From Phormidium tenue FACHB-886 (GTDB lineage: Bacteria; Cyanobacteriota; Cyanobacteriia; Elainellales; Elainellaceae): 64,000 nt of DNA. The number at the start of each line of letters is the position of its first letter. Positions within the stretch are counted from its first letter, which is position 1. Under the pieces are notes generated by a model. The model had not been told where the DNA came from, did not search any database, and was given only the letters and a program-made list of their open reading frames with translations. Positions 8,056 to 11,687 of the stretch are shown here, in pieces. The DNA is taken from contig NZ_JACXWX010000001.1 in NCBI RefSeq assembly GCF_014764505.1, forward strand, positions 744,001 to 808,000, given 5' to 3'. A program made the translations under genes and the position numbers.

Positions 8056-8244
8056 GAATCGATTATGCCTTCGATCTTACTTATAGATACTGTCATCACG
8101 CTGAGGAGATCTTTGTAGGGGCATCGAGTACAGCCCCACGAAATTTCCCTGTCCTCGCTGCTGTGAGGGCTGCTATAGCACCCTTCTTGAATTTGGGATT
8201 ACTAGACGCTAGTGCTGCAATCCACCCTTCCTGCCTGTGCTGCT

Positions 8245-8976
8245 ATGACCTACAACCTGAGAATTGCCGATATCCCTTCTACAGAGCGACCGCGCGAGCG
8301 ACTGCTCACCCATGGGGTAAAAACTTTAGCAACTGCAGAGCTAATTGCCATTTTGCTAGGAACAGGGCAGGGCGCTGGCAAACTCTCGGCGATCGGCTTA
8401 GGACAGCATATCCTGCAGGTTTTAGGAGAAAGCCAGCGCGATCCGTTGGCAGTGCTGCGCGATATCAGCCCCCGTCAGCTCACCGAGATTCATGGCATTG
8501 GTGATGCAAAAGCCGCAACCATTTTAGCGGCAATTGAGCTGGGCAAGCGTGTCCTGCAGTCTCGTCCTGCCGATCGCACGATTGTTGACGATCCTGCTGT
8601 GGCGGCGGCAGCGCTGAGCCACGACCTGATGTGGCAGGCTCAAGAGCGATTTGCGGTGCTGCTGCTCGACATCAAACATCGCATGCTGGGAACCCAACTG
8701 ATTAGCGTAGGCACGGCGACTGAGACGATCGCCCATCCACGCGACATCTTCAGGGCTGCGATCCGGCATGGAGCCGTGCGCGTCATCGTGGCACACAACC
8801 ATCCATCTGGTAGTCTAGAACCAAGCCAAGAAGATATTTCCCTGACGCAACAGCTTCTAAGCGGCGGACGATGTTTGGGCATCCCCATCCTTGACCATCT
8901 AATTTTGGGTAATGGCAATTTTGTGAGTTTGCGCCAAACAACAACTCTTTGGCAGGAGTGCCCCCAAGGGGATTAA
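8245..8976 (+). CDS. radC: RadC family JAB1/MPN domain protein
   Basis: A 243 aa RadC protein. The N-terminal part (about 10-90) holds helix-hairpin-helix segments ([20 protein letters not shown]-like), and the C-terminal JAB/MPN metalloprotease-like fold holds the JAMM signature AHNHPSG followed by S and D (EPSQED). RadC function is unsettled despite the historical DNA-repair name. I chose the ATG at 8245 because the conserved [16 protein letters not shown] block follows at once; a GTG at 8212 would add 11 residues. The upstream 258-base gap carries transposon-like remnants. Confidence 0.9.
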
Positions 8977-9101
8977 GCTTGTATTCAGTCAGGCAATGCC
9001 TCAAAAACAACCCTTCAGCAGAGCTGGTGAAGGGAGATAAACGAGCTGTGGGTTTCTGCTTTCTGAAGGGAAAGACAGCTAAAAAACACAACTTTTTTAT
9101 G

Positions 9102-9130
9102 TTGCACAGACCTGCATCCTGACCTATACT
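9102..9130 (+). promoter_or_regulatory. Sigma-70-type promoter of the STAS gene
   Basis: TTGCAC (9102-9107) and TATACT (9125-9130) are separated by exactly 17 bases, a near-consensus group 1 sigma promoter. Transcription would begin near 9137, leaving a leader of about 45 bases before the STAS coding region. Confidence 0.65.
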
Positions 9131-9149
9131 TGAACCTCGGATAAATACT

Positions 9150-9191
9150 ATGCGGCTACGACACATCCAGCCAGGAGGGGATTATTCCTGA
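9150..9191 (+). other. 13-codon upstream frame overlapping the STAS start
   Basis: An ATG at 9150, just after the predicted transcription start, opens a short frame that ends at TGA (9189-9191) inside the STAS 5' end. The AGGAGG lies 10 bases before that TGA, and the stop is followed by C. A +1 shift at UCC-UGA-C would join this frame to the STAS frame, in the manner of the RF2 gene. Whether it is translated is unknown. Confidence 0.35.
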
Positions 9192-9549
9192 CCCACTTAA
9201 CCTAACCGTCAGTTTAAGAGGCACACGCGAAGTTAGAGACAACTGCCAACTCTTTCGCCTTGCGGGTCTGCTTGATGCTTTTTCTGAGCCAACCTTTCGT
9301 AAGGTGCTAGAGGGATACGTTGATGAAAGCCCCAGAAACTTCATCCTTGATCTGTCTCAAATTGATTTCGTAGATAGCTCCGGGCTAGGTGCTTTGGTGC
9401 AACTGGCTAAAAAAGTACAAAATGCAGGTGGTTCACTACAAATTGTGACCAATCCGAGAGTCACTCAGACAGTAAAACTAGTGCGGCTAGAAAAGTTTTT
9501 GTCGCTTCAGGATTCTGTTGATGTGGCTTTAGAAAATCTGAAGAAGTAG
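9184..9549 (+). CDS. STAS-domain anti-sigma factor antagonist, probable ATT start
   Basis: A 121 aa SpoIIAA-type STAS protein. The fold begins with LTVSLRGTREVRDNCQLFRLAGLLDAFSEPTF and has the phospho-acceptor region DFVDSSGLGALV, whose Ser is the usual target of an anti-sigma kinase and of PP2C phosphatases. It should act by partner switching in cytosolic signalling. No ATG, GTG or TTG lies in frame between the stop at 9142 and the conserved N-terminus. A consensus AGGAGG (9173-9178) sits five bases before ATT at 9184, which I take as the start. A GTG at 9304 would delete the first third of the domain. The gene is 26 bases upstream of mini-RNase III. Confidence 0.85.
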   Translation: MPDPLNLTVSLRGTREVRDNCQLFRLAGLLDAFSEPTFRKVLEGYVDESPRNFILDLSQIDFVDSSGLGALVQLAKKVQNAGGSLQIVTNPRVTQTVKLVRLEKFLSLQDSVDVALENLKK

Positions 9550-9575
9550 AAGCATTACTATAGAGGAGCTTTCAA

Positions 9576-10031
9576 GTGACTTCTGGGCAGGAAACAAGTT
9601 TAGACCTCCCGGAAGTCTTAGGCTTTCTCTGGCTGCAGGCTGGCCTAAATGCCCCGTCTTCTGCAGAGCTTGTCGCTCAGTTTCGCCAGCTTTCTCCGGC
9701 TGCGCTCGCCTATTTAGGCGATGCCGTCTATGAGCTATATGTCCGATCGCGCTACCTGTTACCTCCCAAGCGAATTCAGCTTTATCACAACCAGGTAGTG
9801 GCTCAGGTAAGAGCCGAAGCACAGGCCCAACACTTGCAAAAGCTGCAGCCCCACCTAACCCCTGAAGAACAAGCTATCCTAAAACAAGGGCGCAACGCAG
9901 CCAAACGAACCAAGCGCGTTGATCCAGAACTCTATCAGCAAGCGACTAGTCTAGAAACGTTGCTGGGTTATCTGTATATCACCGATCCCCAACGCCTTGC
10001 TGACTTGCTGAGCCAGCTGCCGTTAGAGTGA
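9576..10031 (+). CDS. mrnC: Mini-ribonuclease III
   Basis: A 151 aa RNase III catalytic domain without the double-stranded-RNA-binding domain. In Bacillus, Mini-III matures 23S rRNA ends; in chloroplasts and cyanobacteria related enzymes act on rRNA and introns. The signature LAYLGDAVYELYVRSRY (about 42-58) carries the catalytic Asp and Glu-side residues, and KRTKRVDPELYQQATSLETLLGYLY matches the second conserved block. The GTG start at 9576 is preceded by GAGGAG. The gene follows the STAS gene by 26 bases and is probably co-transcribed. Confidence 0.93.
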   Translation: MTSGQETSLDLPEVLGFLWLQAGLNAPSSAELVAQFRQLSPAALAYLGDAVYELYVRSRYLLPPKRIQLYHNQVVAQVRAEAQAQHLQKLQPHLTPEEQAILKQGRNAAKRTKRVDPELYQQATSLETLLGYLYITDPQRLADLLSQLPLE

Positions 10032-10445
10032 GCATAGTCTTTGGTTAAGCAACGTGCTTTTAGCAATACTTGCTGAAGCAATGTCAATTGCAATAAAACC
10101 CAATTGACCTATTCTCTTACCCTGCTTTTTAATCAACAAGATACGATTCTGTTTATAAGTGAGTTCAAGAGTTTCCCTACGTCTATCTGCCGCCGCTGAT
10201 CTCAGGATTTCAGCCGGCTTTCATTAAATCTAGTTTTATAGTGAGTCTAAAAATTTAAAACCTTAACGTGGCTTTGTGCGTTTCTGCAGCGCTTCTCGAA
10301 GCCACCGCTAAAAATCGCCAGTGTCTTCCTAAGGGCGATTTCTCGATGCGTTGTTAGATGTGCTCGCCTGCTGAGCCTGTTTGGGGCTAGTTGATTGGCG
10401 CTGCTAAACATACAGAACTTTTGCAATATCCTCGGAGATTCAACC
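10032..10445. other. Intergenic region upstream of rlmB
   Basis: A 414-base stretch with AT-rich blocks (10110-10260) and no frame I believe. The leader of rlmB is at the right end, with CGGAG 10-14 bases before the ATG. I see no RNA gene or clear terminator. Confidence 0.4.
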
Positions 10446-11687
10446 ATGGCACCTAAACCCCCCCGTAACTCAAATTCCTCCCGCGATCGTCAATTTTCTG
10501 CTAAACCTACTGGCAAGAAACCCGTCCGCTTTAAGAAAGGTAAGCCAGCTGAAAGCTCGGATTCCTTTGGAAAACCTAAGCTGGCAGGGGTAGGGCGCGG
10601 TAAAAGTGGTGACAGTAGAGGTGACAAGTTCTCTAAAGATAAGTTCTCTAAAGATAAGTCGGAGCGATCGCCTGAGGAAAAATTTGAAAAAGCCAAATTT
10701 TCTAAAGGTAAATTTGCGAAGCCTGCGGGTCGTTCTCCAGTGCTGCGGCGACGAAATCAAGCGGATGCTGACGCTAATATGTCATCAAAGTTTGATACAG
10801 CCCCAGAAAATTTTCGTTCAAATGGAGCGGCAAATTCTGCTGCTCAACGTGTGATCCCGCGATCGTCTACTCGCCACGAGGTCCCACGCGCTCAGCAAGC
10901 TGATGCAGAGGAAGCGGATACCGAAGCGCTTGATCTAATTTACGGTCGTCACAGTGTCCTAGCAGCTCTGGAGGGGCAGCGCAACCTGAATCGCATATGG
11001 GTCACGCCAAGGTTGCGGTATGATGCTCGGTTTCACTCTCTGCTAACTCAAGCAAAAGCTAGTGGGGCAGTGATTGACGAAGTTGATCATCGCCGCTTAG
11101 ATCAGCTTACGCATGGTGCAAACCATCAAGGCATTGCTGCCCAGGCTGCGCCTTACGAGTATCTTGATCTGAGCGATATGATCGAGCGTGCTAAGGCGGC
11201 AAGCGATCGCCCAATTGTAATCGTGGCAGAAGGGATTACTGATCCCCACAATTTGGGAGCGATTATTCGCACTGCTGAAGCTTTGGGAGCGCAAGGCTTG
11301 GTAATTCCACAGCGAAGAGCATCGGGGATCACCTCGGTGGTGGCAAAGGTGGCAGCAGGTGCACTAGAAACCTTCTCAGTTGCAAGAGTTGTAAACTTAA
11401 GCCGCGCTCTAGAAGATCTAAAAAGTAGTGGATTCTGGATTTACGGAACGGCTGCAACAGCCAGCCAGCCTGTAGACAGCGTCCAATTTGATGGGGCGAT
11501 CGTTTTAGTGATTGGTGCTGAAGGAGAAGGTCTGAGCCTGCTAACGCAGCGTAGTTGTGATGCTCTGGTATCGATCCCGCTTCAAGGTAGTACGTCCAGT
11601 CTTAATGCTTCGGTGGCGGCTGGGATGGTGCTGTATGAGGTATGCCGTCAACGCCGATCCCAAACGCATCGTCTAAAAACCTCTTGA
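10446..11687 (+). CDS. rlmB: 23S rRNA 2'-O-methyltransferase, TrmH/RlmB family
   Basis: A SPOUT methyltransferase of 413 aa, probably methylating G2251-equivalent in 23S rRNA. The core occupies about 175-405: substrate-binding domain starting [14 protein letters not shown], then motif 1 [16 protein letters not shown], motif 2 [10 protein letters not shown] and motif 3 [22 protein letters not shown], which form the knotted AdoMet site. Residues 1-165 are a basic low-complexity extension rich in Lys, Ser and Phe, with repeats of the type [12 protein letters not shown]. Many cyanobacterial homologues have such tails. The ATG at 10446 has CGGAG upstream. Confidence 0.93.

Follow-up and report, generated by a model that had tools for sequence, protein, structure and literature searches.

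Several bacterial genes start at AUU, AUC or AUA (together AUH), outside the three canonical codons ATG, GTG and TTG. In Escherichia coli, infC, which encodes initiation factor IF3, reportedly begins with AUU and is subject to feedback by IF3, a finding attributed to Sacerdot et al. (1996), and the AUU start of pcnB is said to limit translation of that gene, as Binns and Masters are credited with describing in 2002. IF3 discriminates against AUU, AUC and AUA, whereas AUG, GUG and UUG pass, as stated in the part of PMC4611024 available to us. In Staphylococcus aureus, conserved AUA and AUU starts give about a tenth (~10%) of the reporter expression obtained with AUG, and expression of one such gene, ccpN, rises in rich medium (PMC13009471, available portion). 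A proteogenomic study of Nostoc 7120 lists, in the portion available, eight revised genes with ATA or ATT starts (PMC8557916).

The protein most relevant to this work is Ssr1600 of Synechocystis sp. PCC 6803, an antagonist of the anti-sigma factor Slr1861, which controls SigC (PMC12329169). According to the accessible part of this 2025 paper, Ssr1600 binds Slr1861 and is phosphorylated by it, the switch is described as depending critically on the antagonist:anti-sigma factor ratio, cells overexpressing Ssr1600 grew more slowly in high CO2, and the omega-less strain was rescued when most of the antagonist was lost. The same part gives TTG as the initiation codon of ssr1600, and in the overexpression strain this native codon was replaced by ATG.

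The window analysed here is the whole stretch of 64,000 nucleotides from Phormidium tenue FACHB-886 (GCF_014764505.1, NZ_JACXWX010000001.1, positions 744,001 to 808,000, forward strand). It carries on the forward strand, at 9184-9549, a gene of 121 codons (stop codon at 9547-9549) for a STAS-domain anti-sigma-factor antagonist. Upstream lies a RadC-family gene (frame 8212-8976, from the ORF list and Pfam), and downstream on the forward strand an RNase III-domain gene at 9576-10031 (Pfam PF00636), which we take to be Mini-III-like and which served as a start-codon control. The earlier note held that no ATG, GTG or TTG lies in frame before the first conserved strand of the STAS protein, and this was borne out: none occurs among the 13 in-frame codons between the stop codon TAA at 9142-9144 and an ATT at 9184-9186, and the first canonical codon of the frame is a GTG at 9304-9306, codon 41 counted from ATT 9184. 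The Shine-Dalgarno sequence AGGAGG at 9173-9178 indeed ends five bases ahead of this ATT; a second in-frame ATT at 9181 is spaced from it by only two bases. The putative promoter hexamers that the note had named are also in place on the same strand (9102-9130), with TTGCAC at 9102-9107 and TATACT at 9125-9130 separated by 17 bases; a consensus scan chose the same -10 hexamer but paired it with TGCACA at 9103 over a 16-base spacer (1 found versus a mean of 0.3 in shuffles). Elsewhere in the window, the gene at 10395-11687, presumably an RNA methyltransferase, has a repetitive Lys/Ser/Arg-rich N-terminal region (10470-10900).

The deduced protein matches Pfam STAS (PF01740) at 6e-19 and the anti-sigma factor antagonist family TIGR00377 above its cut-off, and the 8 solved sequences that it matched are named anti-sigma antagonist, SPOIIAA or stage II sporulation protein. 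It contains the phosphorylatable motif D64-S65-S66-G67, of which S65 is invariant in 29 aligned rows and S66 is replaced by C in one (L292). Orthology to Ssr1600 was traced via a single locus (L218 in genome G110; no locus was recognised as that of PCC 6803 itself), which matches the window query at 69% and carries the published C-terminal antibody peptide of Ssr1600. The published Ssr1600 residues L24, D25, R33, G43, D58, S59 and S60 all map to the AUU frame of this locus with a constant offset of 6. Judged by these sequence and numbering matches, the STAS protein of the window is the orthologue of Synechocystis Ssr1600. In the genome of the window, HATPase_c_2 matches were found in short frames (151-166 aa, L397-L399), as candidates for the kinase/anti-sigma partner. 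At one orthologous locus (L035), a tandem second STAS gene (~1851-2215) adjoins the first, with an apparent ATG start overlapping the stop codon of the first gene (TAATG) and a DSSG motif that reads DSSS; two genomes (G025 and G026) have a second STAS match too.

Orthologues were collected at several taxonomic depths. All 36 genomes searched from the same order gave a match at E<=0.001 (G006 and G033 with a partial best match), the contig-level search contributed the best 80 of 361 relatives, and a search of the phylum gave a match at E<=1e-20 in 185 of 386 genomes, with one match per listed matching genome. Additional genome sets yielded matches in 35 of 36 genomes, in 52 of 55, and in all 5 of one genus; the three without a match in the set of 55 were G139 and the incomplete G454 and G471. 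G139 was also the only genome of the same class without a match among those listed in the phylum search, a statement that leaves aside 181 further non-matching genomes. At E<=1e-10 it yields no orthologue, and its STAS matches are all distant, one of them containing an internal TGA. Start-region DNA was read at 358 loci; the 320 distinct ones, among which the window's own is counted, span 45 family-level groups of the class (f1-f29 and f43-f58).

Among these 320 distinct orthologues, the first codon is ATT in 239, ATC in 42, ATA in 38 and CTG in 1, so that AUH is kept in 319, and ATG, GTG or TTG stands at this place in none. Exact register with ATT 9184 is seen in 316 (236 ATT, 42 ATC and 38 ATA); three loci that carry a short indel but still have ATT following the Shine-Dalgarno sequence (L146, L204 and L223) were assigned by eye and are counted among the 239. 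A canonical codon is wholly missing in frame from the upstream stop to the first strand in 209 of the 320 (2 rows among the 320 break off without reaching an upstream stop). An in-frame ATG, GTG or TTG occurs upstream in 111, at varying positions: 37 have a canonical codon at -15 (34 TTG and 3 ATG), and in 15 an ATG lies no more than 13 codons from the first strand. A longer form of the protein is possible where such a codon is in frame. The sole non-AUH orthologue (L225 in G185) has its CTG at the aligned position, with an ATG of the same frame at -14, right after a stop codon.

Stop codons confine the start further. TAG overlaps the Shine-Dalgarno sequence in 55 of the 320 (e.g. L008, L011 and L018), and a stop lies two codons ahead of the in-register codon in 12 (L298-L307 among them). 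In a small-genome genus (g51, L298-L308, taken as Prochlorococcus), TAG or TAA directly precedes ATC-ATA in 10 of 11 loci, and therefore only AUC or AUA is available as the start; the two are indistinguishable there, and the in-register AUA was counted. A sequencing error as the cause of the missing canonical start was rejected, since the relatives agree throughout the 320 orthologues. The alignment of leaders in relatives, which the earlier note had proposed as a check, thus strongly supports an AUU start, and we regard the observation made in that note as correct. Within the listings and papers covered, our literature search found no description of an AUH start for this gene, though an earlier notice of it may exist.

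The sequences around the codon point to the same position. AGGAGG is present in 226 of the 320 orthologues and GGAGG in a further 39, with a spacing of exactly 5 in 226 of those 265; weaker motifs are found in the 55 loci without GGAGG, many marine-type loci among them. In the 316 rows in register, variation from -60 to -16 shows no codon phase (1.89/1.90/1.91 bits), whereas downstream of the start the phase is strong (0.80/0.62/1.59 bits), the ATT marking the onset of codon-like variation. The second residue, P, A, S or T in 286 of 320 orthologues, is of the kind expected to follow an initiator Met, and the third is E or D in 319. In a structure model built from 29 orthologues (mean pLDDT 92.3), residues 1-10 are ordered (mean pLDDT 92) and are followed by strands at 11-18 and 21-30 and a helix at 35-43. 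As a control, a canonical in-frame codon was found in 160 of 165 loci for the downstream RNase III-domain gene, for which the stretch searched reaches residue 26 and is longer than for the STAS gene, which favours finding one; all 30 infC loci have a canonical codon no more than 20 codons away. The window holds 5 copies of the motif AGGAGG-N5-ATH, compared with 1.06 expected from shuffles, and the STAS site is the only one of the five without a canonical codon upstream in its own frame. This rarity is weak evidence and was not relied on; the site stands far above chance because AUH is kept in 319 of the 320 orthologues and not because of the motif alone. Taken on the comparative evidence, AUU 9184 is almost certainly the start used in cells, where translation would begin with fMet, guided by AGGAGG five bases upstream.

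A FastTree tree of 319 proteins requires at least 23 changes of the start codon (counting the CTG), none of which leads to ATG. Eleven fourfold-degenerate sites of the same gene change 61-119 times each and have G in 801 of 3491 cells; if the third base of the start were equally free, the chance of finding no G would be 0.77^22, or ~0.003, a rough figure given a crude model and related rows. The tree thus provides a modest argument against chance, and it agrees in direction with the higher rate of switches to AUG than of switches from AUG reported for 36 groups of genomes in the available part of PMC5622118. In addition, ATA is one transition from ATG, yet ATG is found in no row. The near-universal AUH start suggests that a weak start is kept on purpose, and selection for this weakness across the class of photosynthetic cyanobacteria is likely; the joint claim, that the gene is initiated at AUU and that this start is conserved by selection, is in our judgement highly probable. 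Other STAS paralogues of the same genome were also inspected: the scan gave a frame for three of four loci, two of them with a plausible ATG (L003 and L005) and one ambiguous (L002).

We propose that the AUH codon makes initiation less efficient and subject to IF3 proofreading, and that the near-perfect Shine-Dalgarno sequence partly compensates for the weak codon. The weak start would hold the antagonist, a stoichiometric switch protein, low relative to the anti-sigma kinase. A low dose would be useful because the Slr1861:Ssr1600 ratio decides the amount of free SigC, and a weak start combined with a strong Shine-Dalgarno sequence would fit a protein needed in a small, even amount. By analogy with the published switch, we slightly favour dose limitation as the benefit of the weak start. 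The AUH start is a plausible control point, as the earlier note had supposed.

A more far-reaching reading is that the AUH start makes the Ssr1600-type protein a sensor of IF3 or of initiation stringency, tying the SigC switch to the translation machinery. The discrimination of IF3 against AUU, AUC and AUA and the behaviour of the staphylococcal starts, including the rise of ccpN in rich medium, are consistent with it, and the lone exception in our sample, CTG, is also outside the three canonical codons. We offer such sensing tentatively, and a shade more tentatively still the particular version in which IF3 proofreading at AUH would set the antagonist dose, so that the choice between growth and SigC-driven growth restriction would read initiation directly, apart from any infC loop. 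In the infC genes of cyanobacteria a classical IF3 feedback loop is not apparent, since the 30 loci share no AUH start: 11 of them have AUH at the aligned position -6, and 15 have it somewhere within 12 codons. Some lineages may nonetheless start infC at AUH, for example L260-L262, whose nearest canonical codon is a TTG at -13. The N-termini of cyanobacterial infC products are variable, and several genomes carry a second, divergent infC.

It is also conceivable, though rather unlikely, that AUU is the start and that its conservation has no regulatory meaning, a weak start having been inherited early and a strong Shine-Dalgarno sequence having sufficed. The presence of AGGAGG in 226 of the 320 orthologues fits such a good-enough start, as does the plainness of the leader RNA, which in 149 leaders chosen for divergence showed no excess stability over simple base shuffles (mean z +0.39), and for which Rfam gave no match in 8900-9700 at E<=1. 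In the same leaders, the Shine-Dalgarno sequence was predicted to be partly paired (mean unpaired 0.38, against 0.62 for the start; figures without a control). Against a merely inherited start are the excess of switches to AUG over switches from AUG in other genomes, the absence of ATG from all rows despite the single transition that separates it from ATA, and the tandem STAS duplicate of L035, which appears to use ATG.

That a canonical codon is used instead, the AUH being an internal Ile codon or unused, is very improbable. The candidates would be a TTG at residue 7, GTG 9304, or an upstream TTG or ATG. For such a start speak the naming of TTG as the initiation codon of ssr1600 in the available part of PMC12329169 and the in-frame TTG at -15 in 34 of the 320 orthologues. 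By the offset of 6, the published TTG corresponds to residue 7 of the AUU frame, which puts it six codons past the AUU and more than 20 bases from the Shine-Dalgarno sequence. In the five loci of a Synechocystis-like genus, this residue is encoded by TTG in three (L276-L278) and by CTG or CTA in two (L274 and L275), and the window has CTA, whereas the first codon is ATT in all five. Since TTG at residue 7 is not conserved and ATT is, we think that the published Ssr1600 start results from misannotation. A protein begun at GTG 9304 would, according to the structure model, lack the first two long strands and the greater part of the first helix, and upstream canonical candidates are missing in 209 of 320 relatives.

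The earlier note had left a choice between the ATT start and a programmed +1 frameshift like that of the RF2 gene prfB, in which ribosomes initiating at ATG 9150 would move into the STAS frame on arriving at UGA 9189; the ATT part stands on the leaders of the relatives, and the frameshift part was rejected. The frame of 13 codons from ATG 9150 to the TGA at 9189-9191 (9150-9191, forward strand), with C as the next base, is present as described, and UGA occurs at the corresponding place in 231 of the 320 orthologues. In prfB, the codon CUU precedes the frameshift UGA. The frameshift is nevertheless scarcely credible for the STAS gene, because UGA is missing in 89 of the 320, only 66 combine UGA with an upstream frame that is open from some start codon (ATG being the first start in 18), the UGA is a mere overlap of CCU or GCU with GAA or GAC codons (CCU and GAC in the window), the codon before it is mostly UCC, UGC or UUC and not CUU, and the spacing from the Shine-Dalgarno sequence is longer than in prfB.

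With the AUU start preferred, the start of a regulator under current study is probably corrected, the published protein beginning six residues late by its numbering. Binding and kinase assays of the published Ssr1600, which begins at residue 7, showed activity, so the first six residues appear dispensable there. Gene finders limited to ATG, GTG and TTG are expected to misplace the STAS start. The result also raises the question of why a whole bacterial class keeps an inefficient start on a sigma-factor switch.

Compared with the systems described so far, the STAS gene is like prfB in having a Shine-Dalgarno sequence near UGA-C but differs from it in that this geometry is not conserved and no frameshift is predicted. 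It resembles E. coli infC in an AUH start conserved over a wide group; its product, however, is not IF3, so that no direct feedback loop is expected. With E. coli pcnB, a different gene, it would share an AUU that keeps the protein scarce. The S. aureus genes ccpN (AUA) and cvfC1 (AUU), one of which is a regulator, likewise combine a conserved non-canonical start with a strong Shine-Dalgarno sequence, but the conservation of cvfC1 is stated among staphylococci (PMC13009471, available portion), whereas the STAS start extends over 45 family-level cyanobacterial groups. Ssr1600 is the orthologous case, differing in the start codon given for it in the accessible part of PMC12329169, and the STAS gene may be among the eight revised genes of Nostoc 7120. 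With initiation at AUH predicted, the STAS start would be a class-wide addition to the conserved non-canonical starts exemplified by infC, pcnB and ccpN.
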